In this document: positions 2,160 through 53,500 of the stretch, in pieces | Numbering within the stretch: position 1 is the stretch's first letter | Layout of the letters: the number at the start of each line of letters is the position of its first letter | NCBI RefSeq assembly: GCF_029633865.1 | Contig: NC_079224.1 | Location: forward strand, 19,483,395-19,547,394 | Length of the DNA: 64,000 nt | Reading direction: 5' to 3' | Origin: Lampris incognitus | Lineage: Eukaryota; Chordata; Actinopteri; Lampriformes; Lampridae | Notes under the pieces: generated by a model | Database searches by the model: none | What the model was told of the DNA's origin: nothing | Seen by the model: only the letters and a program-made list of their open reading frames with translations | Position numbers and translations under genes: made by a program

Positions 2160-2812
2160 GTGCCAATGCCTTTCCAACACAGCCCAACAGTGTCTCGAGT
2201 GAGTGATCAGTTTGAGACTGTAGAGGCATACTTCAGGAGCAGTGTATACTACACATTTCTGGATACTATGACTGAGGAGCTTTACAGGAGAGTCAAGGGG
2301 GGGCAACACTAGAAGTCCCACTGATGGAATAATTTGATCCTTCCACTCCTTAACAGTACATGTCAACTAGGTAAGTGCCCCAAACTCAGAAGCAGAGGAA
2401 GCTGTCCACATTCTCTGTGATTTCTATGAGGAAGATAAGGACCAGCTGAAGACAGAGCTAAAGGTCTTCCACTCCAGCTTTCCTTCAAGTGACCTGCAAG
2501 AAATTCTTGCCATACTGAATGAAAACAGGGGCCAGCTCATCTTTCCAACCTTAGTGAAGATGATAAGAACCTATGCGACACTGCCAGTGTCAACAGCTCC
2601 TGTAGAGATCATTTTCAAAGCTGAAAATTATCAGGAACAAACTGAGAAGTCTCTGTGGACAAGAACGGCTCGCTGACCTTCTCCTGCTTGCCATAGAACA
2701 AGAAGATGTCCAGATAAACCATAGTGAGGTCATCAGACTGTTCCAAGACATGGCACCAAGGAGGATGCTCCTTTAAAGCGGAAGAATTATCCTGCTCCCT
2801 TCATCTGAGTAC
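2160..2812 (+). pseudogene. hAT-family (ZMYM1-like) transposase C-terminus, decayed
   Basis: Translated pieces from several frames read VSDQFETVEAYFRSSVYY, then NRGQLIFPTLVKMI-RTYATLPVSTAP, then a basic KIIRNKLRS-like stretch and ADLLLLAIEQEDVQ. This order (LxVLLTLPVSTASAERSFS, then the leucine-rich hAT dimerisation tail) is the known C-terminus of hAT transposases and of the derived ZMYM1-type proteins. Stops and frame changes break it. Weaker hAT-like pieces occur upstream (about 1860-2000). It is a relic, not a gene. Confidence 0.6.
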
Positions 2813-2820
2813 ACAGAACA

Positions 2821-4827
2821 CATTTACCCTAATTGTTGCAACTGAACATAGACAAATAAGGTTGCTGTTGATTTTGAATGGTTATTTTATAGACAAATAA
2901 AGTTTGCACAGTGGCATTGTTTTCTTTGTTTTTGCCAATTTCTGCCCTTGTGATGCTAAAGACAATAGCCCCTGTGTGAATTGATACAGTAATTTTGTAG
3001 AAACCTGGTGAGTTTGAAATATCTGCATGAGTATATGGGTATTGAAATAAGTAAATATGTAAGTAAGAACAAGATTTGCCACTGTAACATTTTTTAAATA
3101 AATGAGAGGGATGCCCTTTTTTCACTTGAGCACTGCACCCCCAAAATGTCTGTGCAGTGACATAATTAGAAATGACACATAACGATGTTATCAGGTTGCA
3201 CGTTTTTTAATGTGTTTGTGAATTTTCAAGAACAATTTTGCCAACAGTGGTGCGGATGCTGGGTCACCGAGCATGGTAGATGTCAGGGGCACTCATACGC
3301 TGTCAATTGAATGCAGCTTCCAAATCCACGTCAACTAATAATCTAGAAATGTATAAAAAGCAATCCTCCTACTATGAAATATGTCAATGATAGCTATGGA
3401 TATAGTTAAAGGCAATATTTTGACACACTGTGCATTTCCACATTGGGCCTGAAAAAGGGTTGGATCTGGAATCTTTCATTTGGGCATGAAATTTACGTTA
3501 CGCTTTACTAAATAACTAAACTTAACTAAATAATACTCCTACAATATCTCTAGCCATCCCAACGAAGGCCACATCATTTTGCATTACAGGAGGGGACCTC
3601 GTTGATGAAAATGTTTAATAAAGTTGGTGGTGACACAGATATTGGGGATTTTGAGGTGGGAGAAAAAATAAAACTCTTATCGCAAAAGTAAAGAATAAAG
3701 ACAATTTCAACATTTAAAAACAACATACTGCAAAGCAAAAAGTAATGAAAGAAATTACAAGCATTATAATGGAAAAAAATTGATTACAGGTACAAAAACA
3801 AATTGAGGGACAGGTAGAAAGGCCTTGAGGCTGGTCAAGATGTGTCAGGTTAGAGTCGCCAGTCCTCTTAAGCCTTCACCCTCGTACCACACACTTTCAC
3901 ATTTTCATGACCTATTTCTCTTAATAAAGACATCTGTTCTGACCTTTTTCAGTGAGTCTAGTATATACCTCCATTCTGTTCTTGTGGTTTTGGCACCCAT
4001 TTCCCGGTAATTCAAACTTTTTGATACTTTAATCAAGGACAATTGTTACAATTTACCAGTCTATCTGGTGCAATTTAAACCTAAACTTCCATTTTGAACT
4101 TTCCACTTCACCACACTTTTTCCCTTTTAAAACTTTACTTATTATGGTCTAGTAAAGTTTCACAAATCTGCTGAATAAACTTACTTTTAATGACTTAATT
4201 TTTATTACTTTTATTCAGCTCATAATCATATTTGCAGCTACTACTGGTGTTGGTGCTGGTGTGTTACAGCAGATTGATTTATTACATTCATCTAAACCCC
4301 CTCGAACCCTGACCCACTGGGGTCATCATGTCTTTTCTTCTGCCTTCTTTGAAAATGTCCCCTCATCGTGGCGGTTGTTGCACAAGGGTCAGAGGGCTTC
4401 TTTCCAACTCCAGGATCAGCAGTGGGCTGGCTCGTGACACCTCCAATTACCAATTCTACAATCAATATTACAACAACATAACAGTGTTCAGATATAGTTT
4501 GATGCAGTTTGTAATACATTACATTGCCTGTGTTAGTGTTGGTCTGAGGATGCCATTTTTGAAGTGTGGGAATTGCACACAAGCAAACAATGTCTGCTAC
4601 ACTGTATTTGTAGGTTTTCCCTGCCGGAGGAGGGAAACCACAGATTTTAGCTTTAATTAAAAGCGATGATCAACATCTTGGGACATGTTTAGCTTTTGAT
4701 CAGCGACATTTTATACCCTCAATGTTAAAATGCACCATCTGAATGAAATGCATAGTTTTCATCTCAAGCGCAAGACACAATAAATATTTTGCCAATGCTG
4801 ACATTCAGAATTTAATAAAAAAAAAAT
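2821..4827. other. Stretch with no gene seen
   Basis: AT-rich sequence. Open frames are short, with no recognisable domain. A simple low-complexity run occurs at 3660-3800. I see no structured repeat I can name. Confidence 0.5.
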
Positions 4828-43549: not shown

Positions 43550-44035
43550 TAGAAGAAGAGAACAGACCTTATTTGTCTGGCTAGACACTGAAACAAACAC
43601 ACACACGTAGGGAGTGGTGGCTGAAGAAATGTTCCTTCTGCATTTTTCCCATCCTGCTGTTCTTCCTCCAGGGGCAGCCAGGAGCAGTGTGCAGTCCTTT
43701 CCTTCATCTCTCCTCCACATGTCCAAACCATCTCAATCTTGCCCCTCTTGCTTTGTCTCAAACCGTCCAACCTGAGCTGTCCCTCTAATATAATCGTTCC
43801 TAATCCTGTCCTTCTTCGTCATTCCCAATGAAAATCTTAGCGTCTTCAACTCTGCCACCTCCAGCTCCGCCTCCTGTCTTTTCATCCGTGCCACTGTCTC
43901 CAAACCATATAACATAGCTGGTCTCACAACCATATTGTAAACCTTCCCTTTAACTCTTGCTGGTACCCTTCTGTCACACATCACTCCTGACACTCTTCTC
44001 CACCCACTCCACCCTGCCTAACAACATTTAACCTA
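43550..44035 (-). mobile_element. LINE C-terminal fragment
   Basis: The minus strand reads CDRRVPARVKGKVYNMVVRP, then YIRGTAQVGRF, the C-terminal part of a non-LTR retrotransposon common in fish. It is truncated at both ends. Confidence 0.7.
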
Positions 44036-44970: not shown

Positions 44971-46427
44971 ACGATTATTCTAATGCAATATAAAAACAGT
45001 ATTTTTTTGTTGAGAACATGTTCAAGAACATTAAGAAGTCAACAAGTGTATATTAATGTAAAAAAGAAAATGACAAAATAAATGTAAATGGAGTTATAAA
45101 TAATTAAAATGTAAACTTTTGATTTGAGGAGGGCGATAAGGCTGGTAGACTACTCGCCAGATACAATAAACAGAAAGAAGCAATGGACACTATTCCAGCC
45201 ATTAGGACGGAAGATGGGCATCTTCTGTCTGATCCCAAGGAGATAAATGTGGCTTTTAGAGATTTTTATGTAAAACTTTCCACCTCTGAGCCAGAGGTAG
45301 ACAAAAAATGACATTACTTCATTTCTGCCAACCCTCAATCTTCCATTGTTGTCAGAGTACCAGCTTGAACATCTTGATTCACCCATTACTATTGAAGAGA
45401 TAACTGACATTATCAAGCACCTACCCTCAAGTAAAGCACCAGCTTTAGATGGCTACACGACTGAGTTCTATAAGGCTTACGCCGAGGAACTAGCACCATT
45501 ACTCCTAGACACCTAGTGAGGGAAAGTTAGCAGGAATTTGACCAATCTGGGAAGTAAAGTGTTACCAATAAATTTCTTCACCAATGTGTTCCTTAAGGTG
45601 TGTAGTAACATGTATTAAAATGTTGAAATTCAACTCCCTGGGGTAACCTCCGAAAAAATTGCTCAAAGTCAGGGTACCGATAACAGATTTTCGAAAATTG
45701 AAAAAAGCTTAAATTGGACTTAACTTACGTTTGAGGGGTCAAACTAGGAATTTGTCATGATTCTAAGTTGATTGCAAGCATTTATTTTTCACCAAGACCC
45801 TGGTAGAAAAATATTCACATCCACTTTCCCACTCATCACCCCCCCCCCATGCCGTTGAGGGCACCCGACATGTTGAAGCCATTTACATCCTTTTTCTCTA
45901 TTGATCACGGGCTGACTGAATATATTGCTTTCAACACCTGATACGTACGTATTCTCAACAATTTTTCTAACAAGCTGAAATGTTTCTCTGCACAACACTG
46001 ATGATTCTCATTTGTTACATAAAAGGTATAACTTCGCTTGTTCTTGTTAGCTAGCTAACAGTAAGTAATATGATCGGCTAACGTAAATGTTAACTTCCAC
46101 TAAAAGTTGTCATTACTAGCTTAACAATACTTGTTAGCTGGCTCATAGTTGTCATAAGTTGTCTGACTCTCATGTGTGTACTATACTCCAAAACCTACAT
46201 CTGATTTATTTATTTAGTTAAATGCTAGCTGCCTGCTCCATTAACTACCTAGCTAGGTTAAAGTGGTGTAGCCTGTACTGCCTCAGATTTTTTTTTTTTG
46301 ATTTATTGTTACGGTTAAGCAAATCTATTCTTTTACACCTCAGTACAATATTTCAGAAACTATGCCTCTATGACAGATTCGGTCTTTATTCTACTTTGTG
46401 TAGGCTATGGGTCTTCAGTAGGCTAAT

Positions 46428-48663
46428 ATGGAAGACGATGTGAACCCACCTCTGCTCAAGTGTTTCTTCTGTGAAGGCCTGGAAACGCCAGGTGAGAGGC
46501 TTTTGCAAGGAACTTCTAAAGGCTACGCTACTTTATTGAAACATGCAGAAGCCATGGAAAATGCTACAATTTTGGAGCGTATGAAGAAGGATGAAAATGA
46601 AGGAAGACTTAGATACCACATAAAGTGTAAAGATTATTTGTACAACAAGTTTGTCAAGGTCAACAAGACGTCAGCTCAAGCATCAAAGGCAGAGGAAGAG
46701 ACAGCAAAGCTGAAGTGAAGGCGCACTTGCTCTGAGTTCAGTGCACCAACTGCATGCACCTCTTCAAGTTCACAGTCCGTTCAGCTTCTGTACAAGAATG
46801 TATGCATTCTTTGCAACCAACCCACTCATCTCTACGAACATAAACCAGCAGACGCTAGAAAGAAATATAGAGTGCCTGATAATGTGACTGCAGATAGACT
46901 GAAGGCAAGCTTGCCGAAGATAGCAAGGAGTCGTGGAGATGACTGGGGCACAGAAGTCCTTGGACGTCTGGAAGGGATCAATGACTTAGTAGCAGAAGAA
47001 ACCTTGTATCATTTGCGCTGCAGACTTCTTTTTGAAGAGGGTAGGCCTTACTCCAAGACTGCAGATGAAGGACCAAGGAAGAGAGGACAAAAGAAAATAG
47101 ATGATGAGCGAGAGGTTGTTTTTATTGAATTATGCGAATGGCTAGACACAGAACTTGAACATGGGGTGATGACGCTTGACCAAGTCCACGAAAAGATGCA
47201 GCAGTTTGATCAGTCACCCGATAAGAGCCTCTCTTATTCAAAGAAATGGCTAAGGATGAAACTTCAAGAGAAATATCATGAAACACTGTACTTCACATCA
47301 CAGTCGAAAAGGTCAGATGTACTCTGCCTCAAAGATAACACAAGCAACATTCTGCGAGAGCATCATGCTAATCTTCAGCAAGGAGATGAGAAGACACAAA
47401 TCATAAAGACAGCACTAAAGTTCATATGCAACGACATCGCCATGATTAATCTAGCTCCAAAATCATACCCCACTGCATACAGTATGGCTGATATCCAGAG
47501 TCAGCTGGTACTTGTTCCTGAGAGCCTCCACATGTTCTTGAGACCAATAGTGAAGACCGATGAATGAGTAGCTGTTTGGGGTCAGAACTTTATCAAGGCT
47601 CGTCGGCCTCGATCAGGAGTATTGCCATACCAAATGGGGCTTGCCATACAACTTGATCATAGATTCGGGTCAAAATGGATGATCGACAAGTTACACCGGC
47701 TAGGATACACTGAGTCTTACTCAGAGACACAAAACTACAAATACTGCTTCCTCAATGACAGGAATGGAGATGGCATCCCAGATACATCTGGCACACTTGA
47801 TACCATTGTAGAAGAAACTGATGACCAGATCAATGATGAGGCTGCGATTGATGCCGCACTTGAGGATCCAACGGTTCCGACCGCCAGTGAAAGTGACAAT
47901 CAGGTGGTCTCCATGGAGGTTGCGGAAGCAAAAAATGCAGTCACTCAGTTCGTTGGGGACAATATAGATTTAAACATTGTCTCTGTCAGTGGAAACACCC
48001 CGTTTCATTCAATTGTTTGAAGAGAACAACCCATTCGACCATGATCGAGACAAGAATATGCTTGTATCTTTCTCTACAGGATTCACAAGCACGGGGGATG
48101 ACTCAGTCAATGCGGAGAGAGCAGCTGAAGTAGGTAGAGAGATGCAGATAAAGCTGGATGGACAGTCAGCAACATCAACCATGGAGGTGAAGTCAATTGT
48201 ACAAGCCCTGTCATCACTCAGAAAGATTCCCAAGATCAACGAGAAGAAGATTCATCTTGACTCACTCAAGTTGTTCAACCGACTGATCATTTTTGCTCAA
48301 CGGGATATGACAGTTGAGACAAGCTTGGAGTATGAGCTAACTCCCGTCCCATTGTCCCTTTTCAGCAACAAAGATCACAAAAGGAACAAGGCAAACAAGG
48401 CAGCGTTTTCCAAAACTAGCCTGACGGAGTTGACTGATCCACTTGAACTCACTAACCAACCCTGTTCCACTTTGGTGGTTGATGGAGGATGGCTTCTCTA
48501 CATGGTGAAGTGGGAACAAGGCCAGACTTGGCAGGAGATTGCCAACAGTTACCTAAGGTACGTGCAGCGTCTTGGCTATAACTCTCAAAGGATCATTGTG
48601 GTCTTTGATGGCTATAACAGATCACCAAAAGATCATGACCACATCCGACGTAGCAAGAAATCA
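46428..48663 (+). pseudogene. Academ-like transposase, N-terminal and PIN/XPG part, broken
   Basis: One frame from ATG 46428 to about 48017 is broken by TGA at 46716-46718 and at 47565-47567. A frame change near 48000 leads into 47977-48663. Visible parts: a first zinc module (CFFCEG...YHIKCKDY, about 46452-46632), a second (CILCNQ...YHLRCRLL, about 46806-47030), a family-conserved VGDNIDLNIVSVSGNTPFHS block near 47950-48010, and a PIN/XPG nuclease start at about 48470-48660 (LVVDGGWLLY, IVVFDGYNRSPKDHDHIRR). The nuclease breaks off there, and its later acidic motifs are missing. It may have excised or cut DNA in the living element; the function is inferred. Confidence 0.7.
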
Positions 48664-48831
48664 TAAGTGAATATGTGTTAATGGAGAATTAATACATGGT
48701 TCTAATTAAGGTGAAAGCATACAGAATATGTGGTATGTGTTTTGGTTAGGAATGTTTTGATACTGTCATTATATGGGTTCATATTTTTGAATTGAAAATA
48801 ACCTGAAGTTTATTTCCCAGAAAAGGAGGGA

Positions 48832-49908
<1,077 letters not shown>

Positions 49909-50061
49909 CTTTAGTAGCTGGTAGCATTAGGATGTTGTCTTGTTCAAATGTGCTTGGCGTTGCCCGCCAGTGAAGAAGGGGTTACATTTGTATATTGAAA
50001 TAGCTTTAAAAAACATTGAAATGCACTTTTCAGGTTTTGTGCAGGGGACATTGATAAACAT

Positions 50062-50562
50062 ATGGACATCTTCATGGACATTCATGCTACCAAGGGTGCA
50101 GTGGTTCAGGCTGGAACTGCGATCTTACAATATATTTACAATGGACCAGGTACTACTCTGGGTGAAATTCGGTACACCATGTTCTCACGGAAGGCAGCGG
50201 CTGGGCTGATCAAACCAGAGACTTTACCTCCAACAGAGGGTGCGGCTGCACAGCATTCTCTCCGTGCCTACCTACAGACCCGGGACTGGATTCTTCTACA
50301 GAGCATGTCTCTGGACCCCAGTGACTATGGATGGACATTCGGTGTTCATGGTTATGAGCCAGTTCCAACATTAGACCCAATGGCTCCTGAGGAGCTCCTC
50401 CAGTTCACAAGCTGTAATTGTAATGGAGATTGCAGCAACAGGCGATGCAGCTGCAAGAAGAATGGTGTCAAGTGCATCTCAGCATGTGGAGTTTGTAAAG
50501 GCATTACATGCAAGAATGGTATTCATGATGGTCTTGAAGAAGACTCAGACATTGACTTGTGA
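50062..50562 (+). pseudogene. Academ-like C-terminal domain with CXC-type cysteines
   Basis: A 166-codon open segment. It carries the family-typical TTLGEIRYTMFSRK and LPPTEGAAAQHSLRAY. The Cys-rich end at about 50395-50535 has nine cysteines (CNCNGDCSNRRCSCK, then KC, AC, VC, TC), similar to tesmin/TSO1 CXC repeats, and an acidic tail follows. It is the C-terminus of the same protein as 46428-48663, separated from it by the LTR insertion. Confidence 0.75.
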
Positions 50563-53500
50563 AGCATTTGACATGGATTTTCTCTGACTATTGCAACTGT
50601 TGTAATAAATGCAAAAAAAATATACATGCAAAAGTTGGCATGGCAGTTATTCCACTAAGGAGTAGATCTAGAGAAAATTAAATGCTAGCAATCAACTCAG
50701 AATCATGAAAAAAAGTCTCTACAGCATTGCTGTGATTTGTTATGATAAAAAATGATTTATCTAAATCTTTTTCAAAAAATCACCCTCACACAGACCCCCC
50801 CTCCCCCACTTCCTCTCTATTTTACTACAATATTTTCAAAACAAAAAATGAAAATAAAAGAATAGATGAATTAAAGAACAAGGGTCTCTCACTGGGAGGG
50901 GGTGGATGGAAAGGGCCTTAAGAACGGGATAAAAAAATAAAAAGAATAAAAAATAAAAAATCTTTTAAAAATCATAAAAAATCATATGAGTGAGTTAGAG
51001 ACTTACCCCAAGAGACTTTTTTGTTCAGAAAATTATGTACAAAAATGTTTTGGTAGCCTTTTTTCCTAAACCGGAAGTTGATTTTTTTAATACTGGTGTC
51101 AATACCCCAACTTTGATCAGGTTTTTTCAGGGTTTCCCCTTGGAGTTGAAGTTCAACATTTTAATACATGTTATTACACACCTCTATGAACACATTCATG
51201 AAGAAATTTCTTGGTAATGCTTACTTCCCAGATTTTCCTAACTTTCCCTCACTAACCTATAATGAAGCCCCAGAGAAGGGAAAACTTCCTCCCTCTCTAT
51301 CAGAGGCTATTATTACCCTTATTCCGAAAGAAGGGAAGCACCCTTTAGATTGTAAAAATTTCAGACCCATGAGTTTGACCTCCTGTGAGAGTAAGATACT
51401 ATCTAAAATTTTAGCTAATTGGCTGGACAGGGTTATAACCTCTTTGATCCATCCTGACCAGGTCGGTTTCATACGCTCCCGCTCCTCAGCAGACAACATT
51501 AGGAGATTTGTAGATTTTATGTGGGCTACTCAGGATAACACCTCTCCTATGACTGCCATCTCACTGGATGCCGAAAAGGCATTCGACAGGGTGGAGTGGC
51601 AATATCTGCTCTCCACCCTGGAATGTTTTGGTTTCATCAAGAAGTTCATCGATTGGATTAGTCTCATATACACCCATCCCAAGGCATCTGTGCTCACCAA
51701 CGGCATAATCTCTCCCTCATTTGAACTCGGAAGAGGCACCAGGCAGGGGGACCCTCTCTCCCCTCTGCTTTTCACCGTCGCACTAGAACCATTAGCAGTG
51801 GCTATCAATAAAGAACCTATATGTCCAGGCATTCAAATTGGGGACAAATGTCATAAACTGATGTTGTACGCAGATGACATTCTTTGTTTATGTCCGATCC
51901 TGAACGCTCTCTTTCCTCCCTATTTAAAATTATTGACAAGTTCTCGTTCATTTCCGGTTATAAAGTGAACTGGACAAAGTCTGAGGCTGTCCCTCTTACG
52001 CCATATTGCCCCAAAAACCTCTTCCAATCAGGCACTTTTGCTTGGCCTAAGAAAGGCATCAATTACCTTGGAATAACGCCCCCCCTACTGTCTGACTTGA
52101 TTAAAATAAACTTTGACCCCCTATTGGATATATAGAGTGTTGGTCTCCATTGTATCTCTCTATGTGGGGCAAGGCAAACATCCTTAAAATGAATTGTGCT
52201 CCGAAATTCAACTACCTACTGCAGGCTCTCCCATTCCGAATCCCATTACACTACTTTAAACAATTTGATCAACTTTGTAATAAATTCTTATGGAACGATA
52301 AACACCCAAGAATGAGCCCGCGAAAACTGCAGAGGCCAGTGGACAGAAGAGGCCTTGCGGTGCCTAACCTGCTATTTTACCATTACGTTTTCACTTTTAG
52401 GCATATGGCACAGTGGTCCTTGCCCCCGAAGAGAGCTCCCCCGTGGCTCCATCTTGAGAGCACCATTTGCACTCCTCTTACGCCCATGAACTATACCACA
52501 GCCAAACTAGCCCCACAGTATCGGTCACATCCTATTTTGTCCCATATTCAGTGGGTTTGGAAGAGAATAGCTCAGATCCTTAAATTTGATCCCTTTCCTC
52601 ATCCGTCCGCCGGGATCTGGCTAAATCCCAATCTCTGTATAGATAAATCACCCTTCCTCTGGAAGTCATGGTTTCAGAAAGGTATCACAGTCCTAGGCGA
52701 CCTGTATCAGGGAGAAACATTAAAATCTTTTGAGGCACTTAGGCAGGAATTCGACTTACCACACACTCAATTTTGGAAGTATTTGCAGTTAAGACATCTG
52801 CTGATACACATTTTCGGCTCGCCGTCAATAGACCCATCTAGCGGTGACACTCTAGAAAGAGTCCTTAAGATCTTTGGACGTGGTCATGAGGCTTCTGTCT
52901 ACTACTCTATGATCCTTACAGCCTCAGATTCCAACATACTGACCCTAAAATTGACATGGGAAACTGATTTAAAGGTTTCATTTTTAGAGGCACAATGGGG
53001 AAGAATACTTAGGAATGGGAAAAAAAATGTCAAGGGAACTGCGAACAAGGCTGATCCAATTCAAAATTATAAACAGAGTCTACTGGACGCCATCTAGGCT
53101 GCGTAGAATGTGTTTGGTGGACAGCTCAGAGTGCTGGAGGTGTCTTGACAAAGATGGTACTTTAGTACACATGCTTTGGAGTTGCCCAAAAATACAGGAG
53201 TTCTGATCTGCTATACATATCGATTTTTAAAAAACTTACCGACTTAGACATCCCTTTCTCTTCCAGCCTGTTTATTTTGGGTGACCCCTCTGCATTAAGT
53301 GACTTGACTCCACCGCTTGCTGACTGGATCCAGACTGCCCTTATGTTAGGACGGAAACTCGTGGTCAAAGAACGGAAAGCCTCCTCTGCACCAGCGCCAT
53401 CTTTGTGGTACACTTCTCTTGGTCAGCTGGCTGCCCTAGAACAGTTATCATATAGGCTGCTTGATAAGGTGGAGGAATATCTCTTGAAATGGGGGCAGTA

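Follow-up and report, generated by a model that had tools for sequence, protein, structure and literature searches.

A recently mobile, internally deleted transposon of probable AcademX type within an L1 element of Lampris incognitus

The window analysed here is a stretch of 64,000 nucleotides of Lampris incognitus contig NC_079224.1 (forward-strand positions 19,483,395 to 19,547,394; coordinates below are positions within the window). It contains an Academ-type DNA transposon in the form of a recently transposed, defective copy, which keeps its ends and has lost the core of its enzyme. The copy lies on the plus strand at 45514..51254, is 5,741 bp long counting a nested insertion, and belongs to a family that is new but of a known kind. 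It is very probably a non-autonomous derivative, formed by internal deletion, of a cut-and-paste transposon of the AcademX type, and is non-autonomous because 1,406 bp of the transposase core are missing and the nuclease gene is interrupted. A first-pass annotation, made from the sequence alone, had proposed a nuclease-encoding transposon, most likely Academ. The DNA transposon and its PIN/XPG nuclease were both recovered, and the duplication length, the nuclease and the DDE core fit the description of AcademX, but the coding region is not intact, and the deleted core, the interruption of the nuclease gene and the resulting lack of autonomy had been missed.

Ends, target site and copies in the genome

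The inverted ends (TAGTGAGGGAAAGTTAG and CTAACTTTCCCTCACTA) match perfectly over 17 of 17 bp (45514–45530 against 51238–51254) and are flanked by the target-site duplication ACC, at 45511..45513 on the left and 51255..51257 on the right (no strand assigned). Both features are as first annotated. The 17 bp are the outermost part of a left inverted arm of 163 bp (45514..45676, plus strand), which aligns in a single block, at 81%, with a right arm of 152 bp (51103..51254, minus strand). Further in, a 40-bp block at 45751..45790 (plus strand) has an inverted partner at 50673..50712 (minus strand, 90%), and this pair is displaced, one member lying further from its end of the unit than the other. 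Matching arms had therefore been correctly noticed, but the length of 190–280 bp given for them was generous, because the alignment consists of the 163/152-bp block and the separate, displaced 40-bp block.

The insertion interrupts an L1 reverse-transcriptase frame, the left part of which (45292..45513, plus strand) resumes at 51258 and runs to 51968 on the same strand. When the unit and one ACC were removed, the frame read through as PLLLDTYNEAPEK and was open for 307 codons; the joined piece has one stop near its start, upstream of this open run. A search of the same genome with the joined 222-base empty site gave 44 candidates, of which the best 40 were scored. All 40 cross the join, and the best nine cover 222 of 222 bases at 94–95% identity. 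The closing of the frame and the uninterrupted L1 copies bear out the clean L1 insertion claimed at first pass. Near the L1, an open stretch on the minus strand (43733–44017) resembles the end of a reverse transcriptase of the non-long terminal repeat (non-LTR) type and would represent another repeat.

The left 300 bp of the unit was searched against its own genome, and all of the scored matches (the best 40 of 179 candidates) were 98–100% identical. One of the 40 is the window copy, 20 were read first, L029–L032 were added later and 15 were left out. L001–L008 are short hits that repeat matches counted elsewhere, and L018, for which the right end was not found, was excluded from the duplication and deletion counts. 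For L016 and L028 the match stopped one base inside, and the boundary was placed one base further out. In a check for copies with other boundaries, the 20 copies with both ends (the window copy included) kept the same boundaries and 19 of them had identical 3-bp duplications; L026 has a duplication with one base different. Two further 3-bp duplications, ATA and TTG, were found at L032 and L033, respectively. Together, the inverted ends and the duplications demonstrate that the element inserted at cuts staggered by 3 bp. A consensus of the deleted form (5,009 bp) was built from 14 copies, out of 19 when the window copy is set aside. These 14 differ from it by 0.8–1.6%, and by this measure the spread of the deleted form was recent.

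Loss of the transposase core

Two copies of 6.4 kb, L021 and L013, contain an extra stretch within the coding region relative to the window copy. This stretch is 1,406 bp long and codes for the core of a DDE transposase. When aligned to L021, the window copy and 15 other copies shared both jump points, with the 1,406 bp lost at an 8-bp repeat, TTCAATGG in most copies. In the window the junction is at 48008..48015 (plus strand) and one base of the repeat is altered. L028 jumps likewise, though from a left breakpoint that differs slightly, and L010 has a different deletion that retains part of the core. Altogether the core is absent from 17 of the 20 copies with both ends, the window copy among them. 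Copies with the same deletion occupy unrelated sites and have separate duplications, so the deleted form moved after it arose. It must have done so in trans, as two of the three catalytic acids, D456 and E696, are gone. The deletion itself may have arisen when an excision gap was repaired incompletely. The natural source of transposase would be the full-length copies, which have the same ends; this enzyme would excise the deleted form and insert it with a 3-bp stagger. This animal genome offers a recent case in which Academ-type elements of full length can be compared directly with the deleted copies derived from them and with empty sites.

A search of the genome with the core gave 42 candidates, and the best 40, scored as 44 match rows, fell into two sets. 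Eighteen rows (17 places) were at 94–100% identity and 26 rows were at 76–89%. The lower set appears, from its sequence, to be a second, more diverged group of core-bearing elements in the same genome, either a sister family or older copies. Five of the close matches lie within 1.5 Mb on contig C6, and four of the five were read. These four, L021, L029, L030 and L031 (61.2–62.6 Mb), are near-identical full-length copies with a common left flank; L030 and L031 share the right flank too, and L029 lacks a right end. The shared flank indicates that they are duplications of one insertion in a region duplicated along the chromosome, and they were counted as one insertion. Seven longer copies were read (L013, L021 and L029–L033), and no gene open throughout was present in any of them.

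The window copy carries a second lesion. The transposon sequence breaks off at 48664 and is taken up again at 49986, 577 bp onward in the consensus, so that 1,321 bp of foreign DNA (48665..49985, plus strand; limits computed) replaces 577 bp of the nuclease gene. It contains a purine tract and a TG...CA stretch of approximately 1,155 bp, with a long CT microsatellite and with no 5′ part there, and by eye it was judged to be the 3′ end of an LTR retroelement. This fragment arrived after the deletion and inactivated the nuclease gene of this copy.

Gene parts and their likely roles

The undeleted element codes, with introns, for zinc modules, the DDE-type core, a complete XPG/EXO1-type nuclease and a CXC-like tail, and relatives readable as a single piece are up to 1,516 residues long. 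The acidic residues D283/D286, D456 and E696 are conserved in the alignment and, in the predicted model, would fall in the strand and helix order of a DDE domain. What the window retains, all on the plus strand, starts with the N-terminal part of the gene (46428..48020), three open stretches in one frame with stops at 46716–46718 and 47565–47567. This frame closes just past the deletion junction because 1,406 is not divisible by three. It includes two CxxC...HxxxC modules (46461..46628 and 46803..47021, coordinates hand-counted) and the motif DNID (47958..47969), which is the remaining first acidic motif of the transposase (D283 and D286 in the L021 frame). The start of the XPG/EXO1-type nuclease (VVDGGWLL ... 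VVFDGY ... RRSKKS) follows at 48474..48664 in a different frame. The last exon (50034..50562) holds the end of the nuclease region and the C-terminal tail, with the nine-cysteine CXC-like portion at 50413..50511. The parts listed at first pass (two Cys/His modules, a PIN start and a nine-cysteine tail) are thus all present, but as five open stretches in two frames rather than as a single protein, because the stops, the frame-breaking deletion and the 1,321-bp insertion split them.

The Pfam scan of the open stretches of the window gave nothing above the cut-off, and Pfam CXC did not match the window's own tail piece. The best TCR score, a weak E of 0.066 that falls below the cut-off, was in the relative P0031, and the window piece had none. 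AcademX elements have a cysteine-rich zinc finger, to which the tail may correspond. The nuclease resembles EXO1, FEN1 and XPG in its PIN domain and the helical region that follows, but differs from them in following a transposase and, in the window copy, in being broken. Seven acidic positions are kept in every row of the alignment that has a letter there, bar one change of D to E; we take them to be equivalent to FEN1 residues, FEN1 having Glu at two of them. The zinc modules may bind the element ends, while the XPG part might act in excision or in repair of the gap, cutting the second strand, or cutting or trimming a strand with a branch or flap. Here an EXO1-like nuclease follows immediately after a DDE core, which makes the role of the nuclease in transposition testable in a two-part assay of ends and helper.

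Placement, rival explanations and relatives

AcademX is given duplications of 3 or 4 bp and AcademH of 9 or 10 bp, the two being tied to an encoded nuclease and helicase, respectively (PMC10045372); the Academ duplication is given as 3 bp (PMC5199201) and the mean curated length in bivalves as 5,565 bp (PMC10294476), and low-copy Academ elements are recorded in zebrafish, medaka and stickleback (PMC4746887). The undeleted element agrees with AcademX in combining a 3-bp duplication with an XPG-type nuclease and a DDE transposase, whereas the window copy and most copies read lack the transposase core. Membership of AcademX is likely rather than proven, since the element was placed by published descriptions and not by comparison with Academ sequences. 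The sister lineage AcademH (PMC10045372) differs in its duplication of 9–10 bp, against 3 bp here. No Pfam helicase family was found in the seven proteins scanned or in the 30 A3 members. A wider protein search, which scored only those 7,995 candidates with the most words in common, gave 53 proteins with no helicase-bearing relative by listed domains or names, and no link to AcademH was drawn.

Other superfamilies were also considered. The 3-bp length would fit PIF/Harbinger, and no Harbinger transposase family was among the matches of the same Pfam scans (seven proteins and 30 A3 members), an absence that counts for little in a protein this diverged. The predicted fold of the core resembles that of the hAT transposase Hermes, with a long helical insertion ahead of the Glu and a weak Z, but the duplication of hAT elements is 8 bp, against 3 bp here, and there is no sequence match. 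Foldseek with the same model (m4b78249349a2) gave no match at E 0.001 or below. In a second-look list the rows above Hermes are matches to the nuclease half, and families off the list may also match. The L021 frame itself matched no Pfam family, and no PDB sequence up to E 10. This, together with an Academ likeness that is by description only, leaves some room for a separate, undescribed superfamily which shares the nuclease and 3-bp duplication with Academ and has its own transposase lineage. We consider that unlikely, as the element matches the published account of AcademX in its duplication length, its nuclease and its DDE core, and the length and hosts fit Academ. DUF6589, a Pfam domain of unknown function, matches the core of the distant relatives P0031 and P0033, and may be an Academ-type transposase domain, judging from these matches. 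It is a lead to the nature of that domain and only a lead, because only one of the 30 A3 members matched and L021, P0002, P0009, P0021 and P0034 did not. No mention of DUF6589 was found in the literature searched, and AcademX was named there in one paper.

The deleted form need not be a passive passenger. In the consensus, the frame at 907–2502 (532 codons) is open, contains both zinc modules and overlaps the start of the next frame (2459–3406), and a truncated protein made from it might bind the ends and restrain the full element, as KP restrains the P element. Among the copies read, the deleted form predominates over the full one, as KP derivatives do, and accounts for 17 of 20. However, most single copies have stops or indels in this frame, and the changes between the deleted-form copies and the consensus are near neutral; ratios of non-synonymous to synonymous changes relative to expectation were 0.83 (N-terminal part), 1.29 and 0.94 in the retained frames. 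We therefore do not claim that the frames left in the deleted form are under selection, and such a repressor is rather improbable. It is far less credible that a transposon picked up a host nuclease gene, or that repeats clustered by chance. The window copy invites that idea by showing nuclease and zinc parts without a transposase, but the same ends and gene occur at many sites, the order of core, nuclease and tail is constant in relatives from several hosts, and the multiple copies and empty L1 sites led us to set it aside. Common copies of this kind could nevertheless pass as an odd nuclease gene in annotation.

Proteins of this type had been associated with fish, but by source name the relatives extend beyond them, to a hagfish and an octocoral and, more distantly, to Hymenoptera and a stick insect. 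In a protein tree made by a quick method, P0015 (hagfish, Myxine by name) fell inside the fish-like group and P0010 (octocoral, Paramuricea) beside it, each of these rows filling under half of the columns. They are 76% (P0015, over 516 aligned positions) and 71% (P0010, over 631) identical to the L021 frame, across about half of its length. A2 omits P0015, P0019 and P0025, and A3 omits these as well as P0033 and L021. Transfer between distant hosts is possible on this protein evidence, the alternatives being contamination or an annotation error. There is a small chance of a broader history, in which the family passed between distant animals and, in this genome, one deleted form overtook the newcomer. 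That form would have kept the frames for the zinc modules and the nuclease, and could act on the full element as a KP-like restraint. P0036, which is related to P0031 and comes from the wasp Venturia canescens, bears the gene name Nepl16, apparently in error.
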